Shown piece by piece: positions 3,352 through 51,458 of a DNA stretch of 59,839 nucleotides (position 1 is the first letter of the stretch; the number at the start of each line of letters is the position of its first letter). The stretch spans positions 1 through 59,839 of the forward strand of contig JACCTC010000303.1 in the NCBI GenBank assembly GCA_013812655.1, written 5' to 3'. Position numbers and translations under genes: made by a program. The notes under the pieces are model-generated. The model was not told the DNA's origin, ran no database searches, and was given only the letters and a program-made list of their open reading frames with translations. Origin of the DNA: Deltaproteobacteria bacterium. Lineage in GTDB: Bacteria; Myxococcota_A; Polyangia; Haliangiales; Haliangiaceae.

Positions 3352-5343
3352 TCAGCCGCTAGCGGTTGGGCTGCGCTCGGGGAGATGAACCCGGAACGTG
3401 GTCCCGCTGTCGGTCGAGTCGACGTCGACGGAGCCGCCGTGGGCACGCACGATCTCGTGCACGATGTAGAGGCCGAGCCCGAGGCCGGTCGAGTTGTGCT
3501 CGTTGTCGTGGCCTCGACGATACGGGTCGAACAGCGTCCCGATCACGTGGTGCGGGATCGGGGTCTCGCGGATCACGTTGTGCACGCTGATCGTGACGTT
3601 GCTGCCGACCCGGGCGACGCCGACGGTGATCGGTGCGTTCCGCAGGCCGTACTGGACCGCGTTACCCGCGAGATTCGAGACGACCTGCGCGAGCCGATCG
3701 CCATCCCAGTAGCCGGTGACGTCCATCGGCGCGACCAGCTCGAACGGGGTGTGGTGGACCGCGGCGAGCTCGTCGATCACGGTCTTGATCAACGGCACGA
3801 GATGGATCTTGCGCGGGACGACCGGGATCCCGGCGCCGAGGCGCGCGCGCGTCATGTCGAGGAGCTGATCGACCATGCGGGTCATCCGGTTCGCGCTCGA
3901 CGCGATCCGCTTGACGACGGAGGCGGGAGGCGAGCCGGCCTCGAGATCGAGATCGAGGAGCTCGGTGCCGATCAGGATCGCGCCGAGCGGTGCGCGCAGA
4001 TCGTGGCCGACGATCCCGAGCATCTGCTGCTGGAAGCGCGCGCTCTCCTCGCGCTCGGCGTTGACCGCGTACTGGGCCGTGATGTCCTGGAGCACGGTGA
4101 CGCTGCCCGCCGACAATCCGCGGCCATCGACGAGCGCGACGCCGGACACCGCGAGCGCGAGCTGCTCGCCATCGTAGGGACGCCGGATCAGCGTCTCGAT
4201 GCGTCCGCCCCGCGCGAAGTCCTGCCACGCGGCCAGCGTGATCGGCGTGCCCTCGAACGTGGTCCACGTCGCTAGCCGGTGAACGTCGGCGAGCGGGACG
4301 CCGGTGCGGACGTCCGGAAACAGCCGGTGCGCGGCGGCGTTCGCGAGCGTGATCACACCATCCGCGTCGCTGACGATGATGCCGTTCGGCAGGCTGGTCA
4401 GCACGGCGTCGAGCTGGCCGCGGCCGGCTCGCTCGGCGTCGAACCGCACCGCGCTCTCGACGGCGAGGCTCGCGTACTCCATGCAGGTCTCGATCGTCGC
4501 GATGTCCTGGGCGTCGAACGGTGTCGAGCCACCGTCGCGCGTGACCGTGACGACGCCATGCAGGATCTCGCGGCTGCCGACGGGCAGGATCGCGAGGCCG
4601 CGCAGCCCAAACCGATCGATGTACGGCGTGTAGGCCGGTGGCAGCGTCCCACGCGCGTGCGCGGAGCTCTGGAAGCTGTGGACGACCGGATCGGCGAACG
4701 ACGAGATCGCGGCGAGTGCCTTCCCCGTCGGATCCGCGCGGTGACGCGTGGCGGCGGCGGCCGTGACCGGGCCGGGCAAGAGCAGGATCGAACAGCCATC
4801 GCAGAGGCCATTCGAGAGCACGGTGACGAGTGTGTCGAGGATCCGATCGACGTCGGTCCCGGCCTCGAACAGCGCGCGGCCGAGCTGGTTGATCGTCTCG
4901 AGCCGCTTGCGCTCCTGCTGCGCGATGTCACTGAGCTGCTTGGAGCGGATCGCGGCATCGACGCGGGCGCGCAGCTCCTCGTTCGCGAAGGGCCGCGCGA
5001 CGTAGTCGTTCGCGCCTACGGCGAGGCCGCGCGCGACGTCCGCGGTCTCCGTGCGCGACGCCGTGATCAGGATGATCGGCAGATCGACGGTGTCGGCGTG
5101 CGTGCGAAGAAACTTGCAGACCTCGTCGCCGGCCATGCCGGGCATCACCCAGTCGAGCAGCACGAGATCGGGTTGCGGGGCGCCGGCAGTGAGCCGCTCG
5201 ACGACGACCGCGCCGTCACCGAACCGCTCGAAGTCGAAGCCGTTGCCGAGCGCGCGCTCGGCGATCAACGTCTCGGTGTGGCTGTCGTCGACGATCCACA
5301 CGAGCGGTCGTCGACGCGGAATCTGGAGCTGCTGCTCAGACAC
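3352..5343 (-). CDS. REC-GAF-PAS sensor histidine kinase, last gene of the chemosensory operon
   Basis: A soluble 663-residue hybrid kinase. I place the start at the GTG at 5343: it has a GGAG sequence 10 nt upstream and overlaps the cheB stop by 8 nt; the longer upstream frame runs inside cheB. Domains in order: receiver (1-130, phosphoacceptor Asp64 in LLDWVMPG), GAF (about 145-300), PAS (about 312-420), HisKA with His447 in [13 protein letters not shown], and HATPase with [10 protein letters not shown] and [11 protein letters not shown]. In the receiver, the invariant Lys of the K-P motif is Arg (VARPF, Arg117), which may change its phosphorylation response. There are no membrane segments. 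Its position suggests that it couples the chemosensory output to a phosphorelay. Confidence 0.88.
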
Positions 5344-6349
5344 GCTTCTTGATCTCCCGGGCCATGTCGTCGAGCGGATAACTCGCAGCGCCGAGGCCGG
5401 CCTCGTCGACACAGCGCGGCATCCCGTAGACGACACAGCTCGCAGAAGATTCAGTCATCAAGGACCCGCCCGCGGCCGCGATGGCCTTGGACCCGACCAG
5501 CCCGTCATCACCCATTCCGGTCAACACGATGCCGAGCGTGCGCGCACCGACGACCTCGGCAGCGCTCAAGAACAGCTCGTCGACCGACGGCATGAAGGCG
5601 CGCAGGGGCAACATGCCGAGCCGGGCGACGAGCGCCGAGCCCACGCGCTCGATGCGCAGGTGCATGCCGCCGCGCGCCAGTATCGCCAGCCCGGGCCGGA
5701 GCTCCATGCCGTCCTCTGCCTCGGCGACGTCGAGCTGCGAGGCCTTGTCGAGCCGGCGTGCAAGGGCCTCGGTGTAGCCGGCCGGGATATGCAGCACGAT
5801 CGCGATCGGCGCGTCGAGCTTCGCGGGCAGCGCGGACATCAAGCGAGTCAGCGCCTGCGGACCACCGGTCGAGGTGCCGATCGTGATCAGATCGACCCGG
5901 CCGCCGATGACAGGCTTCTGCACCTGGAGCAGCGGGCTCGTCGGCTCGAGGAAGCTCGCGGCAGCAGCGAGCACCTTGGCGACGAGCTCGTCGCCGATCT
6001 CGTGCAGGCGCTCGGTTGCAAGTGCGGTTGGCTTCGCGACCAGGTCGATCGCGCCGAGCGAGAGCGCCTCGGCACCGATCTCGGTGTCGATCGTCGAGAT
6101 GCTGACGACGATCACGCGCGGGCGCGCCCTGCCCTGCAGCTCGCGGAGGACGGCGAGCCCATCCATTTCGGCCATCGTCAGGTCGAGGGTCACGACATCG
6201 GGGTCGAGTGCGGCGATCCGCTCGAGGCCATCCCGCCCGTCGCGCGCGGTCCCGACGATGTCGATCCGGTTGCTCGCGCGCATCAGCCGCGCCAGCACGG
6301 TGCGCGCGAACGCCGAGTCATCGATGACGACGACGCGCGGTCGCTTCAC
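5336..6349 (-). CDS. cheB: CheB-type protein-glutamate methylesterase/response regulator
   Basis: A 337-residue protein with an N-terminal receiver and a C-terminal methylesterase that removes methyl groups from the receptor glutamates added by CheR. The receiver phosphoacceptor is Asp56 (TLDLTMAEMDG; the usual MPEMDG Pro is Ala) and its Lys is in AKP. The catalytic triad is Ser160 (GTSTGGP), His187 (VLHIPAGYT) and Asp281 (GMGDDG). The ATG start overlaps the end of cheR by 4 nt (ATGA), and its stop is overlapped by the following kinase. The only receptor in the operon is the soluble MCP at 9501-12014, its probable substrate. Confidence 0.95.
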   Translation of the reverse strand: MKRPRVVVIDDSAFARTVLARLMRASNRIDIVGTARDGRDGLERIAALDPDVVTLDLTMAEMDGLAVLRELQGRARPRVIVVSISTIDTEIGAEALSLGAIDLVAKPTALATERLHEIGDELVAKVLAAAASFLEPTSPLLQVQKPVIGGRVDLITIGTSTGGPQALTRLMSALPAKLDAPIAIVLHIPAGYTEALARRLDKASQLDVAEAEDGMELRPGLAILARGGMHLRIERVGSALVARLGMLPLRAFMPSVDELFLSAAEVVGARTLGIVLTGMGDDGLVGSKAIAAAGGSLMTESSASCVVYGMPRCVDEAGLGAASYPLDDMAREIKKRV

Positions 6350-7167
6350 GCGCCGCTCCGGTAGAAGAACGCGTTACCGCGCTCCTCGCACACGAGCGAG
6401 GTGCCGAACCGCAGCAGCGACTCCGAGACGCCGACCGCGATCAGGCCGCCGGGCTCGAGCGAACGGGCCAGCCGCTCGAGGACCTTCAAGATCTGCGCGT
6501 CGTGGAAGTAGATCAGCACGTTGCGGCACAGGATGGCGTCGAACCGGCCGAGCTTGCGGACCGAGGCGTCGTCGAGCAGGTTGATCGTCGCGAACTTGAC
6601 CGCGTCGCGGATGCGCGGCACCACCGCGTAGCCCGCGGCACCGGCATCGAGGTAGCGGCTCGCGACCTCCGGAGGATGGCCGTCGCGCAGCGCGCGCTTG
6701 CCGTGGAGGCCGGCCTTCGCGCGCACGATGGTGTCGCTGCTGACGTCGCTCGCCACGATCTCGACGTGATCGAGGAGGCCGCGCTCCTCGAGCAGCATGG
6801 CGAGCGTGAAGGGTTCCTCGCCCGTGGAGCACGCTGCCGACCACACGCGCGCGCGACCACGCGTGCGGACGAGGTCGGTGAGGTAGTGATCGCAGAGCTG
6901 GACGAGCTGCCTGTACTCGCGAAAGAAGTACGTCTCGTGGACGAGGATCGCCTCGACGAGCTTGTGGAGCTCGACCGCGCCGGGGTCGTCGTAGCGAAGC
7001 CGATAGTAGTAGTCGAGCAAGCTGTCGAAGCCGAGCTCGGTCGCGTGGGTCGAGAGCTTGCTCTCGAGGATCGGTCGATCACCTGCGTCATAATGGACGC
7101 CACAGGCCTTCTCGATCAGGTCCGAGAAGATCGCGAACAGCGGCGGTGTGAGCGCAGGTTCCCCCAT
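6346..7167 (-). CDS. cheR: CheR-type chemoreceptor methyltransferase
   Basis: A SAM-dependent glutamate methyltransferase of 273 residues, the usual length. The N-terminal helical domain is followed by the SAM-binding motif ARVWSAACSTGEEPFTLAM and by the family signature DAILCRNVLIYFHD; the C-terminal part has LEPGGLIAVGVSESL. It starts 3 nt after the stop of the HEAT-repeat gene and overlaps cheB by 4 nt, so it is translationally coupled. With CheB it forms the adaptation pair of this operon. No pentapeptide-tether or TPR extension is seen. Confidence 0.95.
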   Translation of the reverse strand: MGEPALTPPLFAIFSDLIEKACGVHYDAGDRPILESKLSTHATELGFDSLLDYYYRLRYDDPGAVELHKLVEAILVHETYFFREYRQLVQLCDHYLTDLVRTRGRARVWSAACSTGEEPFTLAMLLEERGLLDHVEIVASDVSSDTIVRAKAGLHGKRALRDGHPPEVASRYLDAGAAGYAVVPRIRDAVKFATINLLDDASVRKLGRFDAILCRNVLIYFHDAQILKVLERLARSLEPGGLIAVGVSESLLRFGTSLVCEERGNAFFYRSGA

Positions 7168-7170
7168 GGA

Positions 7171-9504
7171 TCACGCGGCCACCAGTGCAGCGCAGACCCG
7201 GCGGACCTCGAGATCTGGGTCCTCGCGGGCGACTCGCGTCACGGCCTTGTAGGCACCGTCGACGGCCATCGCGATCAGCGTCGTCGCTGCGGCCCGGCGC
7301 GCGGCGGCATTGGTGAGCGTCAGCGCCTCGAACAGCGTCGTCGTCGCCGAACCCTCGTGCATGCGGGCCAGCGCCGACGCGAGAATCGGAGCGCGACGGT
7401 CATCGACGTTCGCGAGCCGGGCCGCGATCGCCGCGATCCGACACGCGCCTGGACGCGACAGCGTCAGGTGAACCGGATGCTCTTCGTCGCACGCGAGCGC
7501 GAGATCGACCAGCGCCTCGGCCGCCGCGCGGTCCCAGCGCTCGCCGAGCAGCGACAGCGCGGCATCGCGCACCTCGGCGACCGGATCGAGCGCTGCGACC
7601 GCGACGTGCTCGAGCGCCGAGTCCTCCGGACGCCGGGCGAGCCCCGAGAGCCCGATCAGCCGGGTCGCGACGTCGGTCGACTTCAGCGCCTCGAACAGGA
7701 ACGGCAAGGCGGCATCGCCGGGTCGCAGGCCCACGCTGATCAGGGCAGCACGGCGCTCGTCGGGATCGCCGGAGCGGATCACGGAGCACAGGGCCTGCCA
7801 GGCCGCCGCCGTCTCGAGGTGCGCGAGCGCCTCGATCGCGGAGATCCGGACATGGGGCGTGGCATCCGCGAGGCGCGCGATCAGCTGCTCGACAGCGTTC
7901 GCCCGGCCGATCCGGCCGAGGCCCTGGCAAGCGTAGTAGCGGACCCACGCGAAGTCGTCCGCCAGCCCGCGCTCGAGGAGCTCGCCGGCATTCTCGCCGA
8001 GCCGGTTCACCGCGGCTCGCATCGCCGCCGCACGCAGCGTCGGCGTCGGGCTCACTGCGATCTCGGCGAGCAACCCGTCGACGCGTGGATCGTTGATCGC
8101 GCCGAGCGAGGCGACCGCGAGCTCCGCGATCCGGGGGTCGGCATCGCTGATGGCGAGGCTGACCGGCTCGTAGGCCTCCGCGAACCCCATGTACGCGATG
8201 ATCCGGAGCGCGTACCGGCGCACCGCGGGCGAGCCGTGCTGGAGCGCCGCGATCACGCGCTTCGCGGTATCGGCGACGCCGAGCGATTGGATCGCCGCGG
8301 TCGCGGCGAGGGCCACCCGCGGGTTCGGATCGTCGAGCGTGGCGAACAGCTGAGGCACCGAGGCCGAGTCACCGATCCGAGCGAGCGCCTCGCACGCCCG
8401 CGCGCGGACCTCGCCGTTCTCGTCGCGGAGCAAAGCCCGCACACTCGCTGCGGCCGCCCGGCTGTTGACGATCGGGAGCACCGCGACCCGGGTGGCAGCG
8501 TCGACCGCGAGCGCGGCGATCTGCGCGGCGTCGTGGAGCTCGCCGATCCGCTGGATCGCCTCGGTCGCGATGGTGTGAAGCTCGGGATCGTCGAGCAGGC
8601 GCGCGAGCTCGGGAATCACGGATTCGTCGCCGATCCGGCCGAGCACGACCGCCAGCGCCGCGCGCTCCTCGGGATCGGACGCCCGCAGCGCGGCGGCAAA
8701 CCGCACGAGTGATGGACCGATGCACTCGCGCATCGTGATGACGACCTGCGCCGCGACGCCGATCCACTCGGCGCGGGTCACGAGATCCGCGAGCGCGAGC
8801 GCGATCAGCCGCACGATCGCATCGCCGCTGCGCGGCAGCAGAGATGCGAGCGGCGGGATCGCCTGCGCCGATCCGGTGCGACCGAGCGCGCGGACGGCCT
8901 CGAAACAGAACGTCTCGTCGTCGAGCAGGCTCGCGAGCGGGGCGACCGCGCGCGGATCGCCGGACTTCGCCAGCACCTGGAGCGCCGGGAACGTGCGGAA
9001 GAAGTTGCGGTGCCCCATCACCGCGATCAGCTCGTCGATCGCGGCGCTGCCGCCGATCGCGCCAAGCGCCTCGATCGCCGCGACCGCGACATTATCGTCG
9101 ACGTGCGAGATCGCCTTGCCGAGGATCGCGCACGCCTCGGTCGCGCGCCGCCTGCCAAGGATCTGCGCGGCGTCCGCGGCGATCGCGGGACGCGGGTCGG
9201 CGAGCATCGCCATCACCGCAACCGTCGTCGACTTGCCGATCGAGGCGGCGAGCGCGTCGACGGCCGCCGCGATCGAGTGCTCCTCGGTGCGCTGGTCGGA
9301 GAGCCAGGTGCAGAGTGGCCCGACCGAGTCGTCCCCGAGGGATGCGAGGGCCGCGACGCTCGCGCGCCGCACGGTCCAGCTCGGATCCGACATCGTCGAG
9401 ATCAGCTCGTCGACGCCCGACGGGCCGAGCGCGACCAGCTGATCGATGTGCTCGACGCGCGCCTGCTCCGCCGTCGTCAGCGTGAAAGTCCGGCTGACCG
9501 TCAT
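7171..9504 (-). CDS. HEAT-repeat (PBS-lyase-type) scaffold protein
   Basis: A 777-residue protein built almost wholly of roughly 31-residue alpha-helical HEAT repeats, over twenty of them, recognisable by the recurring pattern DP-x2-V/R-x-A-A-x2-A-L-G-x-I-G (for example [18 protein letters not shown] and [17 protein letters not shown]). There is no signal peptide, membrane segment or catalytic motif. It sits inside the chemosensory operon, between the receptor (4-nt overlap) and cheR (3-nt gap). The Myxococcus xanthus Che7 cluster is, as I recall, another chemosensory operon with a HEAT-repeat gene (cpc7). I infer a protein-protein scaffold or output adaptor. Confidence 0.88.
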
Positions 9505-12014
9505 GCGGGAGGCTCTCCGGCCCCATCGAGCCTCGACGACATCGCCTCGACCTGCTGGTTCGTGGTGGCCTGTAGCGAGGCAACCTCGCGCGCCACGGTC
9601 GCGACATCGACGACACCGGCGGCCGCGGACTTCGCCTGCGCGGCAAGCGCGGTCGCGATCTCGCGGGTCCGACCACGTACCACGTGCATCGCCTGGTTGA
9701 CCTCGGCCGTCGCGGTGGCCTGATCGCCGGTGATCCGTGCGAGGCCCTGGAGGGAGACCGTCTGCTTCGACACACTGCCGGCGAGGACGCTGAGCGCCTC
9801 GGCCTGCTCGCCGACGGTACGCGCCGTCTGCTTCGCGATCCGCCGGACCTCGTCGGCATCCTTGACCAGCGAGGTCACGCCGGACGCGTGCTCCGCGGTG
9901 GCCACCGTGATGTCGGCGGACAGCCGCGAGACGTCACGGATGCCGGCCTCGAGCTCCTTCGCGACCATCGCCTGCTCGGCGATCGCCCGCGCGTTCTGCA
10001 CCGCGTGCTTGCGCGCACCATCCATCGCGCGCGCGATCTCGGCGGAGCCGTTCGCCTGCTCGGCGATGCCGGCGACCATGCGCTGGGTCGCGCCGGAGAT
10101 CTCCTGCACGCTCGTCGACATCTGCGCGACGCCGCGGATCTGCTCGGTCAAGGCGGTCGCGGTGCGGAGCGTGGCGCCGCGCATCTGCACGGCCCCTCGC
10201 GCCAGCTCGGCCGCGCCGGTTGCCTGCTCCTCGGTCGCGCGCGTGACCTTCTCGGCCGTCGCGGTGAGCTGGGTGTTGCCCTTCACGAGCTCGCGCAGCG
10301 CACGCGCCTGCTCGCTGGTCGCGTCACGGGTCTGCTTGCCCATCGAGCGCAGCTCGCCTGCCGCACGCGCGAGGTTCTGGGTCGCCTGCGTCTGCTCGCT
10401 GCTCGCGCGGGCGATCGTCCGGCTCTCGATCTCGAGTCGCGCGGTCGTGCTCGAGACGGTCTGGACCGCGCGGGCCTGCTCCTCGCTGGCCATGCTGATG
10501 TTCTGGATCGAGCCGTCGAGGAGCTCGACGCCCTCGAGGATGGTCTGCAGGCCGCCACGGGCTTCCTCGCTGAGTGCGGCACCCTCGTCGGCGAGCCGCA
10601 GGCCTTCGGCGCTCGAGGTCAGCGCATCACGTGCTGCGAGCTGGAGGCCACGGACGATCTTCGCGACGTCGGTTGCCGCGGCCGCGGCGCGATCCGCGAG
10701 TGCGCGGACCTCCTCGGCGATCACCGCGAAGCCCCGACCGTGCTCGCCGGCGCGCGCGGCCTCGATGCTCGCGTTGAGTGACAGTAGATTCGTGCGGTCG
10801 GCGATCAGGTTGATCGCCTGCACCATGTCGCCGATCTCCTCGGCGCGGCGCCCGACATCCTTCATCACGCCGGCACCATCGATCATCGCCTGGCGGATCT
10901 TGATCAGGCCACCGATCGACCGACCGACGGTGATACCGCCGGCGCGTGCCGAGCCGGCGACGCGGGCCGAGGTGGTCCGGGTCTGCTCGACCACGCCACC
11001 GATCTTGCGGGTGACCGCCTCGAGCTGCATCGCCGCGGCCGCGCTCGACGACGCGAGCGTACTGACCTCACCGCCGGACTGCGCGACCCGCTGCGCGGAG
11101 CGCGCGAGCGCCTCGATCGCCACGGCGTTGCCGTCGACGACTGTCGCCATCTTCTCGGCGGTCGCGGCGACCTCCTCGACCGATGCGGCGACCTCGGCGA
11201 GGTTGCTGGCGGATGTGGTCGCGGCTTCCTCGAGCGTTCCTGCGAGATCCGAGACTCCGCGGAACGATCGTGCGAGCTCCTCGGCGGTGGCCGATGTCTG
11301 CTCGATCGAGCTCGCAGTCTCGGTCGTGTCCGAGGCGACGATCTCGAGCGCTCCGACGAGCGACTTGAACCCGGCCGCGATGTTGATGACCTTCTCGCCG
11401 ACCTGGCGCGAATCGGTCGCGAGCCGCGCCGAACCGGCCGCCATCTCCTCGACGGTGGTCGCGACTTCTTCGATCGTCGTCGCGGTCTCCATGCCGCGCG
11501 CCGCGGTATCGGCGACGCTCTTGCTGGTCTCCGTCACCGCGGCGACGAGGCGCACCGTGGTCTCGGTGAGCTCGCTCGCGTTTGCCGCGGTGGACTTCAG
11601 CGAGCGCGCTGACTCTTCGAGCACGGTCGCCGTCGACTCGCTGCCCCGCGCCAGGAGCTCGCAGTCGGTTCGCACGGTCGCGACCGAGAGCGCGAGCTGC
11701 TGTAGATCGGCCGCGCTGGTGTCGAGAGCCTGCAGCGTGTCGCGTGCACTCGTCGCGACCTCCTGCTGCGAGCGCGCGAGCTGTTCGGTCGCCGTCGCGG
11801 TCTGATCGAGGCTGTGCGCGATGTCCTCGAGCGCCGCGCTCGCGGTATCCGACGCCAGGCTCTGGTGCACACCACTCTCGGCCAGCCGTTGCGCGGCCCG
11901 CGCGATCTCGACGGCGTGCTCGCCGGTCTGCTGGAGCACTCGCGCCGCATCGTCGGTGCGGTGCATGCCGGTGATCTCGCCGTTCCGAGGTTCAGTGCGT
12001 TTGTCGTTAGCCAT
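9501..12014 (-). CDS. Soluble giant methyl-accepting chemotaxis protein with 28-residue repeats
   Basis: An 837-residue cytoplasmic chemoreceptor with no membrane segment, HAMP or recognisable ligand domain. The conserved hairpin tip ([19 protein letters not shown], about 410-428, then [16 protein letters not shown]) lies at the exact centre, so the whole protein reads as one antiparallel coiled coil with arms of about 400 residues, much longer than the usual receptor classes. In the C-terminal arm a dyad, usually Glu-Gln, recurs every 28 residues (four heptads) at 512, 540, 568, 596, 624, 652, 680, 708, 736, 764 and 792 without one slip. The variants are EH at 708, DQ at 764 and AQ at 792. 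The N-terminal arm has matching TATTIEE (183) and TASSIEQ (239), 56 apart. Many of these fit the Glu/Gln methylation consensus for CheR/CheB. The gene overlaps cheW by 8 nt and the HEAT gene by 4 nt. Confidence 0.93.
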
Positions 12015-12444
12015 GAGCGAGCTCCTCCCCGATCAGCCGGGGCACGTCGACGAGCAGAAATAGACGCTTGGTCACCGTCGCGACCGCGGTGACGAAGCCA
12101 GCACTTTGCCGTTCGATCATCTCGGGCGGCTTCTCGAAGCTGGTCTCGTCGATCCGCAGCACTTCACGGGCGCTGTCGACGAGCAGGCCCGCGACCCGCG
12201 TGCCGACCTGCACGACCAGCACGCGGTTGTCGATCGTGCGCTCGACCGGCGGGAGGCCAAACCGGACGCGCAGATCGACGACCGGCACCACGCGGCCGCG
12301 CACCTGCACGAGGCCGGCGACATACGCCGGAGCGCCCGGGACGAGCGTGGCGTTCTCGAACGACTCGAGGTGGAGCACCTGCGCGGCGGGGACCGCGTAG
12401 CTCGCGGTACCGACGCGAAACGTGACGTGGAGATCGTTGGTCAT
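12007..12444 (-). CDS. cheW: CheW-type chemotaxis adaptor
   Basis: A 145-residue single CheW (SH3-like) domain that links the receptor to CheA. Diagnostic parts are [40 protein letters not shown] and [14 protein letters not shown] use the ATG at 12444, which forms an ATGA overlap with the cheA stop; a longer frame upstream runs antisense-like inside cheA and has no family similarity. It overlaps the start of the receptor gene by 8 nt. The length is close to the family norm. Confidence 0.94.
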
Positions 12445-14474
12445 GATGCCACGCGGTCCCGGTAGACCGACGCGAGCTCGTTGAGGTCGAGCATCAGCGT
12501 CGGCCGGCCGTCGCCCAGATCGGTCGTTCCGGTGATGCCGGGGACGGTGACGAGCGGATCGTCGATGCTGCGAACGACGACCTCCTGGCGGCCGATCATC
12601 CGATCGACGCTGAATGCCATCGGCTGGCCGTTGCGGCGAATCACGAGCGCCTTGCGTGCGCGCGCGCCACTGTCGATCTCGAGGAGGGCGCCGAGCGAGA
12701 GCAGCGGGATCGCCTGGCCGCGGTGCTCGAACAGCGAGACCGCAGAATTCGTCGAGGCGCCGGCGCCCGGGCGAGGTGGCGAGGGTCCGACCGAGACGGT
12801 CTCCGCGGAGACCTCGAAGATCTCCTCGACGAGCGAGGCCGGGACCACGAAGCACTGGGCGCCGCACTGGAACGAGAACACGTCCATCACCGCGATGGTG
12901 ATCGGCACGCGGAGCGTGAACGCGGTGCCCGCGCCGAGCGTGGTCTGCAACGCGAGCTCACCGCCGAGCTCGGCGACGGCGACCCGCTGCACGATGTCCA
13001 TCCCGAGCCCTCGGCCGCTCGTGGTCGTCGCGACCTCGCGCGTCGAGAACCCGGGCCTGGTCAACACCTCGAGCAGCTCCGCATCGCTGGCGATCGGGCG
13101 CTTCGCGCGGCGCGCGATCGCGTCGCGATCGATCCCCTGGCCGTCATCGCGGACGACGAGCTCGATGTGATTTGCCGCGACCGCGACGCACGACACCCGC
13201 ACGGTCCCGGTCGTGGGCTTGCCGGCGGCCGCGCGCTCCTCGGGGGCCTCGATCGCGTGATCGACGGCGTTGCGTACGAGGTGGATCAGGGCAGGCAACA
13301 GCCGATCGGCGACGGCCTTGTCGAGCTCGGTATCACCGGCCTCGAGGACCAGCTGGACCGGGCGCCGGGTCGAACGCGCGAGGCCGCGAACGAGCAGGTT
13401 CAGCGGCTCGAGCACGTCGGCGACACGCACCATACGCGCGCGCAGGATCGCGCGGCGCAGGTCGCGGAGCTGGCGCCCCTGGAGCTGCGCGATCTCGCGC
13501 AGCCGCCGCACGTCGTGACCGAGCTTCGCGATGGCCGCGATCTCGTGTTCGAGGCGGAACCTCGACACGATCAGCAGCGAGAGCTGCTCCTGCAGCTCGT
13601 CGAGGCGCGACAGGTCGACGCGCACGACCGCGCGCCCGATCGCGGTGACGTGATCGTCGCGGTCCGGCGCGCCAGGGGCATCGGGTGCGCCGCTGGCGGC
13701 AATCTCGGCGACGGCGGCGGCAGAGTGCGCGACGACGGCGACGATGTCGACGAGCTCCGTCGCAGCAGTCGCGGCGATGACGTCCCGGCTCGCCTTGCTG
13801 ATCAACAGCATGTCGAACGCAACACCCGTCGCATCCCCCGGTCCGGCGAGCGCGCGTGGAAACACCCGCACGAGCTCGCCGATCGCGGCGAGATCGCGGC
13901 GCACCGAGGCGATCGTGATCCCGCGTGTGACGTTGCTCGCGCTCGGCATGAACGTCACCGCCCACACCGGGATCGCGGTGTCGTGCGCGTGGTCGAGCTG
14001 CTGGAGCTCACCGACCGTCAGGCGCCCTTCCCAGCCGGACGGGATTTTCTTGATCAGGCGAGTCGCCGCGGGCTCCGCGTCGATCGAGGCGATCGTCGCG
14101 ATCAGCTGCACCGGAATCCCGGCGACTTGTCGGCGTTCGGCCACAGCCTGGACGCGCTCGGAGATCTCGCCGATGCCCTGGAGAGCAATCTCGACGGCCT
14201 TCGGGCTCAGCAGCCCGCCGGCGCGATCGGCGCTGCGGATCAGGGTCTCGAGCGCGTGCGCGATCTCGACGATCGGCTCGACGCCCATCATCCCCGCGAG
14301 CCCCTTGATCGTGTGGAGTGCGCGAAACAGGTCGCGCACGATCCGCGGGCGCGTCGTGCCCTCGGTGTTCGCGACCTCGATCTCGAGCAACGAGAGGTTC
14401 GCGGCAGCCGCCAGCTCTTCAGCCTCGGCCACGAACGCCCCGACGAATTCTTGCAGGTCGACGCGTTCGCTCAC
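12441..14474 (-). CDS. cheA: CheA-type chemotaxis histidine kinase
   Basis: A 677-residue soluble kinase. The N-terminal Hpt (P1) domain carries the phosphorylated His54 in LFRALHTIKGLAGMMG. The middle (about 115-285) contains no obvious P2 docking domain of known type. P3 dimerisation follows (VDLSRLDELQEQLSLL). The HATPase has HLVRNAVDHAIEAPEER (N box), DDGQGID (G1) and TSGRGLGMDIVQ (G2), and a C-terminal CheW-like domain ends the protein. There is no receiver domain. It overlaps cheY and cheW by 4 nt on either side. It should phosphorylate the CheY next to it, CheB, and perhaps the receiver of the terminal kinase. Confidence 0.95.
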   Translation of the reverse strand: MSERVDLQEFVGAFVAEAEELAAAANLSLLEIEVANTEGTTRPRIVRDLFRALHTIKGLAGMMGVEPIVEIAHALETLIRSADRAGGLLSPKAVEIALQGIGEISERVQAVAERRQVAGIPVQLIATIASIDAEPAATRLIKKIPSGWEGRLTVGELQQLDHAHDTAIPVWAVTFMPSASNVTRGITIASVRRDLAAIGELVRVFPRALAGPGDATGVAFDMLLISKASRDVIAATAATELVDIVAVVAHSAAAVAEIAASGAPDAPGAPDRDDHVTAIGRAVVRVDLSRLDELQEQLSLLIVSRFRLEHEIAAIAKLGHDVRRLREIAQLQGRQLRDLRRAILRARMVRVADVLEPLNLLVRGLARSTRRPVQLVLEAGDTELDKAVADRLLPALIHLVRNAVDHAIEAPEERAAAGKPTTGTVRVSCVAVAANHIELVVRDDGQGIDRDAIARRAKRPIASDAELLEVLTRPGFSTREVATTTSGRGLGMDIVQRVAVAELGGELALQTTLGAGTAFTLRVPITIAVMDVFSFQCGAQCFVVPASLVEEIFEVSAETVSVGPSPPRPGAGASTNSAVSLFEHRGQAIPLLSLGALLEIDSGARARKALVIRRNGQPMAFSVDRMIGRQEVVVRSIDDPLVTVPGITGTTDLGDGRPTLMLDLNELASVYRDRVAS

Positions 14475-14854
14475 GCGGTAGGTTGCTTGCCGGGCAAGAA
14501 CCGCCGCACGGCCTCGAGGATCTCGGCAGGCGCGAACGGCTTCGCCAGGAAGCCCGATGCACCCGCGTCGATCACCCGCGCGCGGCTCGCATCGTCACCA
14601 CGCGTGGTCACGACGACGATCGGCAGCGTGCGGAGGCGATCCTGCGCGCGCACGAACTCGATAACCTCGAGCCCACCGACATCGGGCATGTTGATGTCGA
14701 GGATCACGAGATCGAAACCTGCCAGCGCGAGCCGCTCGATGGCCTCGAGACCGGTCGCCGCGAACTCGAAGGCCACCTCGCCGAGGGGCCGCAGGCACGC
14801 CGCGACCATGTCGCGCATCAACTTGCTGTCATCGACGATGAGGAGACGCTTCAT
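14471..14854 (-). CDS. CheY-like single-domain response regulator, first gene of the operon
   Basis: A 127-residue receiver with the complete set of conserved residues: acidic pair in IVDDSKLMRD, phosphoacceptor Asp53 (VILDINMPDVGG), Thr in VVVTTRG and Lys in FLAKPFAP. There is no output domain, so it works through protein contacts. It is the promoter-proximal gene of the seven others on the minus strand and overlaps cheA by 4 nt. The 250-bp divergent region separating it from a Ser/Thr kinase is the only plausible place for the operon promoter. Confidence 0.93.
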   Translation of the reverse strand: MKRLLIVDDSKLMRDMVAACLRPLGEVAFEFAATGLEAIERLALAGFDLVILDINMPDVGGLEVIEFVRAQDRLRTLPIVVVTTRGDDASRARVIDAGASGFLAKPFAPAEILEAVRRFLPGKQPTA

Positions 14855-14954
14855 TGGCTCGACCGAGCGCTCAGGCTAGCACGCGCGTTTACGCGGTCGG
14901 TGGGCGGACGCCAGCGCCGGACGCTTATGACACGATGCCTACAACTTACGTACT

Positions 14955-14979
14955 GTGCGGGCGCGAGCGCCCCGCGCAC
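14955..14979. promoter_or_regulatory. Interrupted inverted repeat in the divergent cheY / Ser-Thr kinase region
   Basis: GTGC-GGGCG, a CGAG loop, then CGCCC-(CGC)-GCAC: nine paired bases with a three-base bulge. It lies between the divergent start of the chemosensory operon and the Ser/Thr kinase gene. It could be an operator or a hairpin in a leader RNA; there is no clear -10/-35 pair to anchor it. Confidence 0.3.
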
Positions 14980-15106
14980 TGTGACGCGAGCGCACGGTCG
15001 GTAAGTCAGAGGCTCGAGTGACGTCCGCGGGCCTGATCGATCTCGTCGATCGACCTGCGCGCCCATGTCCTGGGGTGGCTGCATTCGTGCACTAGACGAG
15101 CAAATC

Positions 15107-16231
15107 ATGGAGATGTTCACGTTCGGTCCGGGGACGATCGTCGGCCCGTACCGCATCGTGAAGCAGATTGGCTCTGGCGGCATGGGCGCGGTCTACGAGG
15201 CTGCTCACCTCGTGCTGCGCCGTCGCGCGGCGGTCAAGGTGCTGCACGCTCACCTGCGTGGCAAGTCAGGCCTCGACGCCCGGATGATCCAGGAGGCGTC
15301 GATCCTGGAGGATCTCTGTCACCCCGGGATCACGCGCATCTACGACTGTGCCGTGCTCGCCGACGGCCGGCCGTGGATCGCGATGGAGCTGGTCCCTGGC
15401 GAGAGCCTCGCGGTGCGGATGGCGCGGGAAGTCCGCATCCCGCATGCCGACCTCAGCAAGCTGATGTCGTCGATCGCCGATGTCCTCGCGACCGTTCACG
15501 TCCGCGGCATCGTCCATCGCGATCTCAAGCCCGATAACATCCTGTTCGCCGAGCTCCACACCGGCTTTCCGCTTCGCATCATCGACTGGGGAGTCGCCCG
15601 GCTCGGCCCGAGCGCGCGCCTCACCCAGGACGGTGTCACCTGCGGCACGCCGATCTACATGTCGCCCGAGCAGTGCGCCGGCAAGAACATCGCCCCCGCG
15701 TGCGACGTCTACTCGCTCGGCATCATGGCGTACGAGGCGCTGTGCGGCCATCCGCCGTTCGAAGGTGAAAACCTCGCCGAGGTCGTCAAGCTCCACCTGC
15801 ACGGCGCGGCCGCACCGCTCGCGACCAAGTGTCCGACGGCACCGCAGAAGCTGTGCGAGCTCGTCCACCAGATGCTCCACAAGGTGCCGACGATGCGGCC
15901 GACCGCGAGCACGGTGAGCCTGAGGATGAACGAGCTCGCGAACTCGATCACCGATGCGCGCCACGACTTCGCGCAGTTCGAGCTCGAGGAGCCACCGAGC
16001 GAGTTCGCCTCGTTCGAGATCACCGGCGGCGCCCCACAACCAGTGCGGGCCGCGAAGTTTGGCCCGTCGCACGCCCTCGACCAGATCCTGACCGAGACCT
16101 CCGACTCGGACACCACGGCGAAGTGGGCGTCCGATCCAGGCGGTCCCGATCGAAAACCCGAGCAGTCCGCGTCGGACTCCACCACCCGCGCGACGCGGAC
16201 CAGCGCCCAGGTCGAGAAGCTCGGGCGCTGA
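15107..16231 (+). CDS. Soluble Ser/Thr protein kinase
   Basis: A Hanks-type kinase with a full catalytic core: glycine loop IGSGGMGAVYEA, ATP-binding Lys (AAVKVLH), catalytic loop VHRDLKPDNIL, metal-binding DWG in place of DFG (IIDWGVARL, common in myxobacterial kinases), and the activation segment GTPIYMSPEQ. The remaining 85 or so residues after the kinase core are Ser/Thr/Glu-rich, low in complexity and without a membrane segment. I choose the ATG at 15107 (MEMFTFGPGTIVG), where the kinase similarity begins; an in-frame ATG at 15065 would add 14 residues. It converges with the histidine kinase on the other strand, leaving about 6 bp if that gene ends at 16238. Confidence 0.92.
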   Translation: MEMFTFGPGTIVGPYRIVKQIGSGGMGAVYEAAHLVLRRRAAVKVLHAHLRGKSGLDARMIQEASILEDLCHPGITRIYDCAVLADGRPWIAMELVPGESLAVRMAREVRIPHADLSKLMSSIADVLATVHVRGIVHRDLKPDNILFAELHTGFPLRIIDWGVARLGPSARLTQDGVTCGTPIYMSPEQCAGKNIAPACDVYSLGIMAYEALCGHPPFEGENLAEVVKLHLHGAAAPLATKCPTAPQKLCELVHQMLHKVPTMRPTASTVSLRMNELANSITDARHDFAQFELEEPPSEFASFEITGGAPQPVRAAKFGPSHALDQILTETSDSDTTAKWASDPGGPDRKPEQSASDSTTRATRTSAQVEKLGR

Positions 16232-16237
16232 CCCTGG

Positions 16238-17885
16238 TCACGCCTTCGCGAGCGGCAACGTGAGCTCGAAGGTCGCGCCCTGCCCTTCGGTGCTGACGAC
16301 CGATAGTCCCGCCGTGCGCCTCCGCGATCGCGCGGCTGATGTAGAGGCCGAGGCCCGTCCCCTTCGCCTCCCCGCGCTTCCCCGACCAGTAGCGATCGAA
16401 GACGTGCGGCAGGCTCTCCGCTGCGATCCCCGGTCCGGTGTCGGTGATCGCGAACCGTGCGAGCGAGCCATCGCGTGCCCCGCGCACGTGAATCGCGTCG
16501 CCCGCGCGACAGAACTTGATCGCATTGCCGAGCAGGTTGCCGAACACCTGGGCCACCCGGTTGCGGTCGCAAGCGAGCTGCACGCCCTGGAGCTCGCACG
16601 CGCGATGGATCGTGATGCCACGCTCTGCGGCGCGCGGTTCGTGGACGTCGAGGACCTCGGAGACGAGCTGGTCCGCGTCCTCGACCCCGACGTCGAGCGC
16701 GAGCCGACCCGCGTTGATACTCGAGAGGTCGAGCAGATCGTTGATCAGGTGCTCCATGCGATCCTTCGAGCGCTTGACGATCTCGAGATACTTGCGCGCG
16801 CCCGGAACGGGATCACAGGTCGGCGACAACATCGACGTCGCCAGCTCGATCGCTCCGAGCGGGCTGCGCAGATCGTGCGACACGATCGCCAGCACGTCCT
16901 CGCGCGCGCGCACGGCCTCCTGCGCTTCCGCGTACAGCCTCGCGTTATCCGCCGCGGTGCGCTCGGCGGCCTCGCGCAGCACGTGCTGGTGGATCGCAGC
17001 GGTCGCGCGGGCGACCATCGCGGCGAACACCCGCTTGTCCTGGTTCGAGAAGCCATTGGACGTCAACGAGCCAATCTTCGCCACGCCGATCACCTCGTCG
17101 CCATCGATCATCGGCACGCCGTAGACGACACGCAGCCCGGCACTCGCGAGCACCGGGCTGTGCAGATCGCGCGACGAGGGCGTCGTCATGGACTGCGGTT
17201 GCCTGGAGGTCGCGATCGAGCCCGCGAAGCTAGCCTTCAGAGGGATCGCGAAGCCTTCCTCGGTATCGCGATCGAGCCCGGTTGCGGCGCGAACGCGAAA
17301 CCCGTCGCTGTCGCGCAGCAGGATGGCGGCAGTGTCGACCGACAGCGTCGAGTCGCGCAGCACTTGCAACAATCGCCGTAGCAGCTCGGTCAGGTCGCGG
17401 CTCTCGAACGCCGCCGTCGAGATCCGGTCGAATGCGACCAGCGTGCGCTCCCGCACCGCGGTGTAACGCGCGACGCTCGCGAGGACCGAGAAATCGATCG
17501 CCTCGTCCAGCAGCCGGATCTCGGCGAGCGCGGGTGGTGCGGTCGCGGCGCGCTCCCAGACCTCGAGGATCGACACCCGGAGCATGCGGAACTCGGTCAC
17601 CACCTGGACCAGGTCGAAGCCTTCCTCGAGGCGCTCGAGCGCATGCCGCTCCGCGATCTCGATCGGGAGATGCGGCGAGCTCCCCGCGGCCAGCTCGCCG
17701 GCCATCGCGCCGATCCGATCGAGCAGATCGGGGACGTGATCGATCAGGCTCGGACGATCGAGCCCACGGGCCTGGGGAAGCGTCCTGACGCGGCGCTCCC
17801 ACTCGCACAGGATGTCGTCCCGCCGGAGCTCGAGCAGATCCACCAGCCGTCGCACCGAGTCGTGCCGTGAGCTGCTCGGCTGCAT
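16238..17885 (-). CDS. GAF sensor histidine kinase with a frameshift in the ATPase domain
   Basis: A soluble kinase. An N-terminal helical domain (about 10-150) resembles the RsbRD-type N-domain; GAF (about 160-300), HisKA with His337 (AIVSHDLRSPLGAIEL) and HATPase (GNLLGNAIKF, DTGPGI, GTGLGLYISRA) follow. The first frame is normal up to HGGTIG (about residue 528, near 16300), then turns into Arg-rich nonsense that would run antisense through the end of the neighbouring kinase gene to 16020. The next frame continues exactly as expected (VSTEGQGATFELTLPLAKA) and stops at 16238. A one-base gain or two-base loss near 16298-16310 explains this. Either the gene is a recent pseudogene with a damaged last strand, or the base call is wrong. 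Confidence 0.85.
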
Positions 17886-18121: not shown

Positions 18122-19822
18122 ATGTCGAACAATCCAGACCTCGCGATCCCGACGGTGATCGACGACGTCGCGACGCAACCGGTCTCGCTTGGCCGCGAGA
18201 TCTTGATCGTCGATGACGTGCCGGCAAACCTCGTCGCGCTCGAGGCGGCACTCGCTCCGCTGCAGCGGCCGATCGTCAAGGCGAGCTCGGGACGCGAGGC
18301 GCTCGCGTACCTGCTCGACAAGAACTTCTCGCTGCTCCTGCTCGACGTTCAGATGCCGATCATGGATGGCTTCGAGACCGCCGCCTTGATCCGCGGTCGC
18401 GAGCGCACCAAGCACCTGCCGATCATCTTCATCACCGCGCATCACCACGATCAGGCGGCAGTGCTGCGCGCGTACCGGCTCGGCGCCGTCGATTTTTTGA
18501 CGAAGCCGATCGAGCCCGCGATCCTGCTCGCGAAGGCGTCGGTGTTCGTCTCGCTGCAGGATCGAACCGAGGAGCTCGCGTCTGAACGATTCCAGCGCGA
18601 GTTCGACGCGACGCGACGCGAGTACGAGAACGACGCGCTGCGCCGGCAGATGGAGCAAGAGCACGCCGCCAAGGTCGAGCTCGCGCGTCTCAACGCCGCC
18701 CTCGCCGAGACCGATCAGCACAAGGACGAGTTCCTCGCGATCCTCGGCCACGAGCTCCGTAACCCGCTCGCGCCGCTGCGCACCGCGATCGATCTCGTCA
18801 AGGGGCACCCCGACACGCCGCTGAGCGAGCGCACGATCGACATCCTCGATCGCCAGACCGAGATGCTGACCCGGCTCGTCGAGGATCTACTCGACCTGTC
18901 GCGGATCAACGCGAACAAGATCGAGCTTCGCCCCGAGCCCGGAGACCTGCGCACGCTCGTGCAGGCCGCGGTCGACACCAGCCGACCGGCGGTCGAGCAG
19001 CGTCGCCACGCGTTGGCGCTCGAGGTCGGCCCGGAACCCGTCCACGTGGTCGCCGATCGCGTGCGGCTGATCCAGGTCGTCACGAATCTGATCAACAACG
19101 CGGCCCGCTACACCGAGCTCGGCGGCAAGATCGCGGTCGCGTGCGGTATCGTCGACGGGCGCGCGTTCGTACGGATCTCCGACAACGGGATCGGGATCCC
19201 GGCCGAGCTGCTACCGCGGATCTTCGACATGTTCGTGCAGGAGCGCGTCCGCTCCGATGGCTCGGGTGGTCTCGGCCTCGGCCTCGCGCTGTCCCGCCAG
19301 CTCGTGCAGATGCACCACGGGACCATCACGGCCCGCAGTGGCGGCCGCGATACCGGCAGCAGCTTCGAGCTGAGGTTACCGCTCGCCGGCCCGCCCGATG
19401 TGCCCGCCGCCCATCTGCGGACCGATGCGGTGCAGCCGCTCGCGCGACCGGTGGTCACCGCACTACGAACCGTCGTCGTCGACGACAACGCCGACGCCCG
19501 CGAGCTGGTCGCGGATCTCCTGCGATCGCGCGGTCACGTCGTCATGACCGCGGGGGACGGCCACCAGGGTCTCGTGATGATCCGCGATCACCGTCCGGAC
19601 GTCGCGATCGTCGACCTCGGTCTGCCGGGCATCGATGGCCTGACGCTCGCGCAGCAACTCCGCGAGCAATGTCCCGATCTGCGAACCCGCCTCGTGGCGC
19701 TGACCGGCTACGGCCTCGCAGGCGATCTGCAGCGCACGAAGGAAGCCGGGTTCGATGCCCACCTCGTGAAGCCCGCATCGGCCGCGGCGATTCTCGCGGC
19801 GCTCGCGCCAGCGACGCCTTGA
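18122..19822 (+). CDS. Hybrid histidine kinase, REC-HisKA-HATPase-REC
   Basis: A 566-residue soluble protein. The N-terminal receiver has phosphoacceptor Asp75 (LLLLDVQMPIMDGFE) and Lys in TKPIEP. A coiled-coil signalling helix (about 145-195) leads to HisKA with His210 (LAILGHELRNPLAP), HATPase with NLINNAARYTE, DNGIGIP and GGLGLGLAL, and a C-terminal receiver with Asp498 (AIVDLGLPGIDG). A receiver at each end implies a relay that can take phosphate in and pass it on. There is no sensory or membrane domain. The gene is followed after 90 bp by a second REC kinase with a closely similar N-terminal receiver, suggesting duplication. Confidence 0.93.
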   Translation: MSNNPDLAIPTVIDDVATQPVSLGREILIVDDVPANLVALEAALAPLQRPIVKASSGREALAYLLDKNFSLLLLDVQMPIMDGFETAALIRGRERTKHLPIIFITAHHHDQAAVLRAYRLGAVDFLTKPIEPAILLAKASVFVSLQDRTEELASERFQREFDATRREYENDALRRQMEQEHAAKVELARLNAALAETDQHKDEFLAILGHELRNPLAPLRTAIDLVKGHPDTPLSERTIDILDRQTEMLTRLVEDLLDLSRINANKIELRPEPGDLRTLVQAAVDTSRPAVEQRRHALALEVGPEPVHVVADRVRLIQVVTNLINNAARYTELGGKIAVACGIVDGRAFVRISDNGIGIPAELLPRIFDMFVQERVRSDGSGGLGLGLALSRQLVQMHHGTITARSGGRDTGSSFELRLPLAGPPDVPAAHLRTDAVQPLARPVVTALRTVVVDDNADARELVADLLRSRGHVVMTAGDGHQGLVMIRDHRPDVAIVDLGLPGIDGLTLAQQLREQCPDLRTRLVALTGYGLAGDLQRTKEAGFDAHLVKPASAAAILAALAPATP

Positions 19823-19912
19823 GCCATAGGAAATTCCTGGGGCTCGGGCGATGGATCACGTGATCTCACGAGTTCTCCCGCACGCGGCGCGTACGGCGCC
19901 TCGATCTGTTGC

Positions 19913-21667
19913 ATGCTGGGGGGCGTGTCGCAGTACTCGGAGGACACCGCGCACGACGACGAGCTCGTCGTGCCGATCGGACAGGACATCCTCGTCGTCG
20001 ATGATGATCCGAAGAACCTCGTCGCGATCGAGGCTGCCCTCGGTCCCCTCGGACGACGCCTCGTGCTCGCACACTCCGGCACCGAGGCGTTGAGCCGGCT
20101 CCTCGAGCAAGACTTCGCGCTGATCCTGCTCGACGTGATGATGCCGAAGATGGATGGCTTCGAGGCTGCCAAGCTGATCCGCTCCCGCGAGCGGAACCGA
20201 GCGACGCCGATCATCTTCATCACCGGGCTCGCATGGGAGGAGACCGACATCCTCCGCAGCTACGAGCTCGGCGCCTTCGACTTCCTGGTCAAGCCGGTAC
20301 GTGCCGAGGTGCTGCGCGCGAAGGCGTCGGTGTTCCTGTTACTCCAGGAGCGAACGCTCGCGCTGCGCGAGGCGCTGGCACGGATCCACGACCGCGAGCT
20401 CGCGAAGCTCTACCAGGCCGAGCAAGCGGCCAGGCTGCTCGCCGAGCTCGCGAAGCGTCGCGCGCTGTTCCTGTCGCAGGCGAGCGCGATCCTCGGCGCG
20501 TCGCTCGACATCGACGACACGTTGCGCAACGTGGCGCAGGCCGCGGTCCCCGGCATCGCGGACTGGTGCGCCGTCGAGCTCGTCGGCGAGGACGGCGTGC
20601 TGCGCCAGGTCGCGGTGGCGCACGTCGATCCGACGAAGATCACGCTCGCAAGGGAGCTGCGCGAGCGATACCCGACGCCACCGGACGCGCCGACCGGCGT
20701 CCCGAACGTGATCCGCACCGGCACGTCGGAGCTCTACACCGAGATCCCGGACGCCATGCTCGTGCAGGGAGCGCGCGACCCCGAGCATCTTCGACTCATC
20801 CGCGAGCTCGGGTTGCGGTCGGCCATGATCGTGCCGATCTTCGATCGGGGACGAGCCGTCGGCGCCATCAGCTTCGTCACCGCCGAGTCCGGCGAACGCT
20901 ACTCCGCCGACGACCTGCAGATGGCGGAGCAGCTCGGCGAGCGAGCGAGCGTGGCCATCGCGAACGCCCGGCTGTACGAACAGGCCAAGGTGGCCATCCA
21001 GCTCCGCGACGACTTCGTCTCGATCGCCGGGCACGAGCTGCGGACGCCACTCGCGACGCTCTCGCTGCAGATGGAGGCGCTGCTCCAGATCCGGGACGAC
21101 ACCCCGATTGCCGAGGTCCGGCACCGCGGCACGAAGCTCGCCAAGCAGGTCGCGCGGATGTCGTCGCTCGCCGATCAGCTGCTGGACGTCAGCCAGCTCG
21201 CGACAAAGCGGCTCGAGCTCGCTCACGAACGCTTCGATCTGGGCGCGCTCGCGCGGGAGATCGTCGCGCGCATCACGGACGAAGTTCCCGACGCGCGGAT
21301 CTCGATCGACGCTCGCGAGGTCGTCGGCAGGTGGGATCAGGCTCGCATCGACCAGGTCGTGACCAACCTCGTCACCAACGCCATCAAATACGGCGACAGC
21401 AAGCCGGTGTCCGTGCGCGTCGACGGCGACGCCACGGAGGCCATCCTCACGGTCGCCGACCAGGGCATCGGCATCGCGACCGACGACCAGGCGCGGATCT
21501 TCGAGCGCTTCGAGCGTGCGGTCTCACCACGGCGCTTCGGCGGGCTCGGGCTCGGGTTGTGGATCGTGAAGCAGCTCGTCGACGCCCACGGCGGCTCGAT
21601 CAACGTCGCCAGCACGCCCGCGACCGGCACGACGTTCACGGTAACACTTCCACGACAGCCCGCATGA
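19913..21667 (+). CDS. REC-GAF sensor histidine kinase
   Basis: A 584-residue soluble kinase. The receiver (Asp74 in ILLDVMMPKMDGFEAAKLIR) resembles that of the kinase just upstream, including the shared linker AKASVFxxLQxRT. A GAF domain (about 185-355), HisKA with His374 (VSIAGHELRTPLATL) and HATPase (NLVTNAIKYGD, DQGIGI, FGGLGLGLWIV) follow. The first possible start is the ATG at 19913; a GTG at 19925 lies directly behind a G-rich stretch and may be used instead. It is followed after 13 bp by a single receiver, so the two are probably cotranscribed. Confidence 0.92.
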   Translation: MLGGVSQYSEDTAHDDELVVPIGQDILVVDDDPKNLVAIEAALGPLGRRLVLAHSGTEALSRLLEQDFALILLDVMMPKMDGFEAAKLIRSRERNRATPIIFITGLAWEETDILRSYELGAFDFLVKPVRAEVLRAKASVFLLLQERTLALREALARIHDRELAKLYQAEQAARLLAELAKRRALFLSQASAILGASLDIDDTLRNVAQAAVPGIADWCAVELVGEDGVLRQVAVAHVDPTKITLARELRERYPTPPDAPTGVPNVIRTGTSELYTEIPDAMLVQGARDPEHLRLIRELGLRSAMIVPIFDRGRAVGAISFVTAESGERYSADDLQMAEQLGERASVAIANARLYEQAKVAIQLRDDFVSIAGHELRTPLATLSLQMEALLQIRDDTPIAEVRHRGTKLAKQVARMSSLADQLLDVSQLATKRLELAHERFDLGALAREIVARITDEVPDARISIDAREVVGRWDQARIDQVVTNLVTNAIKYGDSKPVSVRVDGDATEAILTVADQGIGIATDDQARIFERFERAVSPRRFGGLGLGLWIVKQLVDAHGGSINVASTPATGTTFTVTLPRQPA

Positions 21668-51402: not shown

Positions 51403-51458
51403 ATGGGTGAGTGACCGATCGGCGGGAACCAGGACCGGCGCGTGGTGTCACGAGGCCG

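Follow-up and report, generated by a model that had tools for sequence, protein, structure and literature searches.

We report that a 59,839-nucleotide contig (JACCTC010000303.1, assembly GCA_013812655.1) from a Haliangiaceae bacterium, hereafter the window, encodes a chemotaxis (che) operon whose receptor, an 837-residue methyl-accepting chemotaxis protein (MCP), carries a 28/56-residue lattice in one heptad phase on both arms of the chain. We propose, with a probability of about 0.68, that this protein is a Che7-type, probably non-flagellar cytoplasmic receptor folded as a hairpin of about 110 heptads, in which paired acidic and glutamine residues on the C-terminal (C) arm form structural layers and the adaptation sites lie elsewhere, at heptad position c of the N-terminal (N) arm. 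A preliminary description of this DNA had recognized the C-arm pairs and read them as possible methylation sites; the lattice that it marked on one arm in fact extends over both.

A 28-residue lattice in both arms of the receptor

The dyads that had been placed every 28 residues between positions 512 and 792 are exact. Ten follow an [ED][QH] pattern, with EQ at 512, 540, 568, 596, 624, 652, 680 and 736, EH at 708 and DQ at 764, and the eleventh is AQ at 792. All ten [ED][QH] dyads of the C arm (residues 470-830) share a single 28-residue phase, and none of 20,000 shuffles that kept heptad position placed ten such dyads in one phase, the highest value being seven. In a family profile of 38 rows, from which the frameshifted L104 was excluded, the C arm had its six best heptad lags at 168, 56, 112, 28, 84 and 140, all of them multiples of 28, and the N arm had its four best at 168, 56, 112 and 28. 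Shuffles of whole heptad blocks never reached the observed excess of self-similarity at 28 or 56 residues (0 of 2000, in the C arm and the N arm alike). Lattice steps of 14 and 42, which have common multiples with 28, were also raised, and steps of 21 and 35 were not. Together, the heptad-preserving and heptad-block shuffles rule out chance or heptad composition as the source of the dyads.

The lattice also includes charged columns conserved at 56-residue spacing, namely E133, E245 and E301 and R137, R249 and R305 in the N arm, where no residue reaches this level of conservation at the place that would fall between 133 and 245, and R556, R612, R668 and R724 in the C arm. Such columns would be expected if the lattice served lateral packing, with 28/56-residue charge bands aligning neighboring rods or docking the HEAT-repeat protein encoded beside the receptor. 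In myosin rods a 28-residue charge repeat aligns neighboring rods, and the HEAT gene is present at all 38 orthologous loci. The strongest element of the lattice is, however, a glutamine in the core of the coil, which favors internal packing, and we regard a lateral role as possible but rather unlikely.

The periodicity predicted for homologues is retained. When 317 genomes of the class were queried with the C arm, the receptor was recovered in 40, own genome included, and 38 of the 39 others formed the orthologue set, the truncated copy of G007 being excluded; G002 gave no C-arm match. Within the genus, the long receptor occurs in six of 15 other genomes, whole in G004, G010 and G014, cut at a contig end in G002 and G007, and split by a frameshift in G015. 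Thirty of the 38 orthologues are free of indels over window residues 60-815. The 39 aligned rows offer 10 or 11 lattice places each, of which 7 to 11 are occupied by dyads (median 10). EQ is found at 540 and 596 in every orthologue and at 652 in 37 of the 38, and the glutamines at 513, 541, 569, 597 and 625 are invariant in 38 rows. Column 792 is not conserved, and the C-arm lattice is weaker at its outer end.

Beyond the class, a receptor with nine dyads was present in L117, a genome from another class. Searches of other classes of the phylum for long relatives gave one of 57 (L117), none of 71 and none of 52 genomes, with E thresholds that varied (1e-20, 1e-15, 1e-12 and 1e-10) and empty answers that are weak evidence; another draw of 90 genomes from other classes yielded two matches, both partial and confined to the profile's first half. 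In a draw from the phylum as a whole, at least 40 of 377 genomes matched, and in at least 12 of these the match extended along most of the C arm (best five candidates per genome scored). At an E cut-off of 1e-3, 72,556 plasmid records yielded a single match, on Gemmatirosa kalamazoonensis plasmid 2. Six short receptor peptides searched against GTDB contigs, where near records were possibly excluded, returned four loci, all encoding MCPs of ordinary length.

Heptad register and length of the coil

The receptor belongs to PF00015 (138 bits; cut-off 34.6) and contains the conserved hairpin tip. MCPsignal, at residues 378-527, is the sole match in a Pfam scan, which bears out the earlier reading that HAMP and sensor domains are lacking, and the tip residue E424 is indeed the center of the chain. 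No proline occurs between residues 10 and 834. Averaged over 39 aligned proteins, the hydropathy period is 3.500 residues in both arms, with a nearly constant phase (-102 to -153 degrees) for windows 36 to 830. Core position a was assigned to residues p with p mod 7 = 6 and core position d, three residues later, to those with p mod 7 = 2; in this register the dyad glutamate falls at c and the dyad glutamine at core d.

Counted by hydropathy phase rather than with the length-class hidden Markov models (HMMs), each arm comprises about 55 heptads, or about 110 in total, running from residue ~36 through the tip at 424 to ~815. MCP length classes are listed up to 64H (PMC6943060), and the receptor, by the same phase-based count, lies outside the 24H to 64H range, in line with the great length first proposed. 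At 10.5 Å per heptad pair (PMC6628036), ~55 heptads per arm correspond to an estimated rod of about 580 Å, near 58 nm, and the 64H ceiling to 336 Å. The latter source also refers, without describing them, to a small number of rare receptors that exceed 32 paired heptads.

Of the very long coiled coil envisaged in the preliminary description, the unbroken heptad phase and the proline-free chain stand, and its continuity is left unproven by a structure model of low confidence. That AlphaFold2 model, for which one sequence served as input, is helical over almost its whole length, with a break at 419-424 (mean pLDDT, the predicted local distance difference test, 53.7; predicted template modeling score 0.28). 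The customary Kyte-Doolittle cut-off for membrane segments is 1.6, and the highest 19-residue mean in the receptor, starting at residue 209, is 1.64. Although this value is about at the cut-off, we read the stretch as coil because it contains N, K and E and keeps the heptad phase, and the earlier claim that no membrane segment is present probably holds. We infer a dimer with hairpin pairing and a rod shape.

Glutamate-glutamine exchange points to likely adaptation sites on the N arm

Changes of glutamate were scored by parsimony on a tree of 38 proteins, in every column that lies outside the tip (375-475) and has a Glu share of 40% or more. At c positions of the N arm (14 columns) there were 65 Glu-Gln, 15 Glu-Asp and 34 other changes. 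The corresponding counts were 13, 59 and 49 at N-arm b positions (19 columns), 3, 16 and 10 at the c positions of the C-arm lattice (10 columns), and 5, 30 and 20 at other C-arm c positions (7 columns). The 50 other Glu-rich columns together gave 34 Glu-Gln and 166 Glu-Asp changes, and N-arm c positions differ from them strongly (Fisher test by changes, odds ratio 21, p about 4e-24). Since changes are not independent, a test by columns is safer; Glu-Gln changes outnumber Glu-Asp changes in 10 of 14 N-arm c columns versus 7 of the 50 others (p = 8e-5).

The adaptation-type c positions are 106, 134, 155, 162, 183, 190, 239, 246, 281 and 302. The first nine show four to eight Glu-Gln and no Glu-Asp changes each, and column 302, where Glu occupies just one third of rows, shows ten Glu-Gln changes. 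Several are spaced by 56 residues (134-190-246-302, 183-239 and 106-162). The window receptor itself has R at 155 and A at 302. Because exchange of Glu and Gln with hardly any Asp is expected where CheB deamidates and CheR methylates a residue, we infer that adaptation sites lie at about ten N-arm c positions, 122-318 residues (18-47 nm) from the tip. The methylation consensus likewise places the methylated residue at heptad c (PMC6829392). Across 40 proteins (the 39 rows and the Gemmatirosa receptor), the strict consensus occurs 4.33 times per N arm, 4.22 of these at c, versus 1.70 in heptad-preserving shuffles, and exceeds expectation in all 40. Per C arm it occurs 2.05 times, with 0.47 at c, versus 0.89 shuffled.

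These results bear directly on the initial suggestion that the C-arm Glu/Gln dyads could be methylation sites, which would give the long soluble receptor a ladder of about ten. In E. coli Tsr (1qu7), by hand count on the alignment, a conserved DEQ glutamate lies 28 residues before the methylation site at position 493. The operon includes CheR and CheB genes, the dyad glutamate occupies heptad c, the position of known sites (PMC6829392), and FrzF devoid of its tetratricopeptide repeats methylates M. xanthus FrzCD in vitro at E168, with which an EQ pair begins (PMC2535941). The dyad glutamine, however, is buried in the core at d and near-invariant, and the glutamate is invariant in the scored rows at 540, 596 and 652 and elsewhere shows 16 changes to Asp, 3 to Gln and 10 of other kinds. 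Moreover, position b is rarely Glu or Gln at most lattice places (exceptions are 596, with 46%, and 512, with 23%), and the strict consensus is seldom satisfied there. Given a near-invariant core glutamine and a glutamate that favors Asp over Gln, the dyads are probably not methylation sites, and we consider the C-arm ladder improbable.

Several observations weigh against a continuous hairpin with N-arm adaptation sites. On the structural side, the hydrophobic stretch at residue 209 counts slightly against it, and the AlphaFold2 model, besides its low scores, contains further breaks, such as 321-358, in low-confidence stretches. Tests of charge pairing and core volume between the arms gave no clear signal for or against hairpin pairing, and the N-arm partners of the Gln layers, in an assumed register, are not small (mean volume 137.5 for 10 partners versus 118.9 for 30 others). 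As to adaptation, N-arm c columns 92, 148 and 232 change mainly to Asp, the change counts represent one parsimonious reconstruction with ties broken arbitrarily, and in 31 of 40 proteins the strict consensus is commoner in the C arm than in shuffles, although most of these C-arm matches fall outside the register. A control on a second MCP family (described below) was weak, with 10 Glu-Gln and 7 Glu-Asp changes at N-arm c (12 proteins, looser columns), and just four of 15 ordinary MCPs were in register for comparison of the Glu/Gln pattern. The methylated EQ pair of FrzCD belongs here as well, as does the basis of the Mcp7 assignment presented below, which is the HEAT gene, the order of the genes and the size and solubility of the receptor, not sequence comparison.

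The 28-residue module in other chemoreceptors

The number of modules, counted outward from a start 88 residues from the tip (+88), varies from 7 to 11 in the long receptor family and is 8 in Gemmatirosa. Among the ordinary MCP open reading frames (ORFs) listed, three of 15 have one or two modules and the other 12 have none. The two other MCPs of the genome that holds the window have no [ED][QH] dyad at lattice places, one of them having QQ at +88.

A second MCP family of the same phylum (L011-L021 and L024) comprises ORFs of 506-717 aa with AQAG in the tip. Its 12 proteins align without gaps over 380 columns and have two to four of the 28-residue modules, with dyads, in 11 proteins, at +88 in 11, +116 in 10, +144 in 11 and +172 in 5; most members also have additional off-lattice dyads, for example at +122 or +178.

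These graded counts from a common start suggest that the lattice is a serial extension of an existing 28-residue MCP module. The same finding, fewer copies of the same module at equal distance from the tip, would fit a lattice that is merely the relic of repeated 28-residue duplication, kept by coiled-coil constraint and without a function of its own. No tandem repeat remains at the DNA level in the receptor gene, and the 28-residue units are unlike overall (mean identity 0.22 in protein and 0.45 in DNA), yet several dyad columns are near-invariant in the 38 orthologues. Since these columns persist though the units have diverged, selection holds these positions, and we find a functionless relic very doubtful.

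Relation to Che7 and other chemosensory systems

The operon order of the window, CheY-CheA-CheW-receptor-HEAT-CheR-CheB, with ORFs overlapping or nearly touching, matches that of Myxococcus xanthus Che7, as do the protein sizes (Table 1); the receptor there, Mcp7 (MXAN_6962), has 821 residues versus 837 here. The Che7 loci are MXAN_6959, 6960 and 6962-6965, encoding CheB7 (348 aa), CheR7 (273 aa), Mcp7, CheW7 (148 aa), CheA7 (683 aa) and CheY7 (125 aa); Mcp7 has an MCP domain at 317-534, with no transmembrane segment or HAMP listed (PMC3945109). By gene order and a HAMP-less receptor of ~820 aa, the window system belongs with Che7/Mcp7, and the receptor is most likely an Mcp7 orthologue. Cpc7, a HEAT protein, interacts with CheY7 in M. 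xanthus (PMC11514114), and MXAN_6961 would be its gene. Mcp7-GFP forms mobile clusters, and the Mcp7-CheW7 interaction served as a positive control (PMC3945109). The same source classes all M. xanthus MCPs save DifA and McpK as 40H, versus the ~110 heptads counted in the window receptor, and states neither a lattice nor a total coil length for Mcp7 in the parts covered.

The plasmid relative, from G. kalamazoonensis KBS708 (NZ_CP007130.1), has the same operon order with blastp matches to the window genes, although Gemmatimonadota is probably a different phylum from that of the window's source. Its receptor (688 aa from the chosen Met) has its eight dyads in 28-residue steps from the same +88 start and four strict methylation-consensus sites, all in the N arm and all at c. 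The HEAT ORF there (L138 7686-12440) is apparently longer at its N terminus, with a PAS-like extension judged by eye.

Two receptors of known structure share the tip but have far shorter arms. By hand count on the alignment, the same EQ motif lies 88 residues from the tip in Thermotoga maritima TM1143 (2ch7, 44H) and 74 residues from it in E. coli Tsr (36H), and their bundles measure about 260 Å and 210 Å (PMC2577667), versus the ~580 Å estimated here. FrzCD of M. xanthus and TlpT of R. sphaeroides are soluble receptors with mapped modification sites; FrzCD, with 417 aa, is far shorter, and TlpT, classed as 36H, has its mapped sites at heptad c. A 28-residue chemoreceptor repeat was not found in the literature searched, where the sole co-occurrence of the terms was a linker in another protein and the phrase "28-residue repeat" was absent among the matches listed for chemoreceptors. 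A 2025 review of M. xanthus names neither Che7 nor Mcp7, and in the literature searched a single paper has Mcp7 together with Che7 and Myxococcus. The architecture is thus conserved and unusual, and the literature searched, in the parts covered, holds no description of it for Mcp7, its likely best-known member.

Proposed mechanism and implications

In the proposed hairpin, ~55 heptads per arm would have arisen by serial extension of a 28-residue (four-heptad) module, of which some ordinary receptors have one or two copies. The C-arm modules, each with a core Gln layer at d and an exposed acid at c, may keep the helices in register along the rod. The MCP tip is the established contact for CheW and CheA, and the tip of this receptor presumably binds them too. 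CheR and CheB of the operon would act on Glu/Gln 18-47 nm away from it, at some ten c positions of the N arm, and the HEAT protein may act as a partner of the system, as Cpc7 does with CheY7. In its most specific form, with a one-sided N-arm ladder of about ten Glu/Gln adaptation sites on a ~110-heptad rod whose Gln layers hold the arms in register, the proposal is tentative, and we consider it less likely than not.

Such receptors might pack in cytoplasmic arrays far thicker than known ones, whose baseplates lie about 30-31 nm apart (PMC3964821); two layers end to end would separate the baseplates by ~110 nm. If correct, adaptation would not take place beside the kinase-control region, and the modification signal would be carried over tens of nanometers of coiled coil in arrays with a thickness of roughly 110 nm, providing a natural test of the reach of signal and adaptation along a coil. 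The accepted length classes would omit a conserved class nearly twice as long, to which a receptor published as 40H would belong, and the protein would resemble a ruler whose length perhaps changes by 28 residues at a time. The long-receptor reading could be tested in M. xanthus Che7 and in Gemmatirosa.

Operon organization and neighboring genes

At the 38 orthologous loci, some of them cut at contig ends, same-strand genes with at least 35% identity were found for CheW (38), HEAT (38), CheA (37), CheB (36), CheY (35) and CheR (35). HEAT directly follows the receptor in 36 of the 38, and the full CheA-to-CheB order is kept in 29. The genome (93.5% complete) gave no match for FliF and six PilT-family matches over the cut-off, for which reason a flagellar output of the system appears unlikely.

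Table 1. Features of the che operon and of its receptor, in window coordinates
Feature	Position	Strand	Remarks
CheB	5336..6349	-	337 aa
CheR	6346..7167	-	273 aa
HEAT-repeat protein	7171..9504	-	777 aa; Cpc7-like; adjoins receptor gene
Receptor without HAMP or sensor domain	9501..12014	-	837 aa; resembles Mcp7; heptad phase unbroken; tip at E424
C-arm lattice, residues 512-793	9636..10481	-	28-residue spacing of acid (heptad c) and Gln (core d)
Conserved hairpin tip, residues 393-440	10695..10838	-	expected CheA/CheW contact region; inside PF00015 match
N-arm stretch, residues 106-302	11109..11699	-	adaptation-type c positions; Glu/Gln exchange among orthologues
CheW	12007..12444	-	about 145 aa; start placed at in-frame ATG
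CheA	12441..14474	-	677 aa; Hpt, dimerization, HATPase and CheW domains
CheY-like single-domain response regulator	14471..14854	-	127 aa

Upstream of CheY lies a 110-aa ORF (14851-15183, reverse strand) that has no Pfam or NCBIfam match and is perhaps no gene. The operon is flanked by four histidine kinases or hybrids (3352-5436, 16020-17885 and 18122-21667), and kinase-like ORFs also occur near it in many of the 38 relatives, at ~27-51% identity that may reflect general kinase likeness.

Farther along the forward strand, the window encodes a 1385-aa ORF with a Ser/Thr kinase domain and WD40-type propeller matches (24057-28214), a 418-aa protein in which three stretches are of the PPIC-type peptidyl-prolyl isomerase kind (43186-44442) and a 2061-aa bacterial alpha-2-macroglobulin-like ORF with a Big_5 domain (51411-57596).

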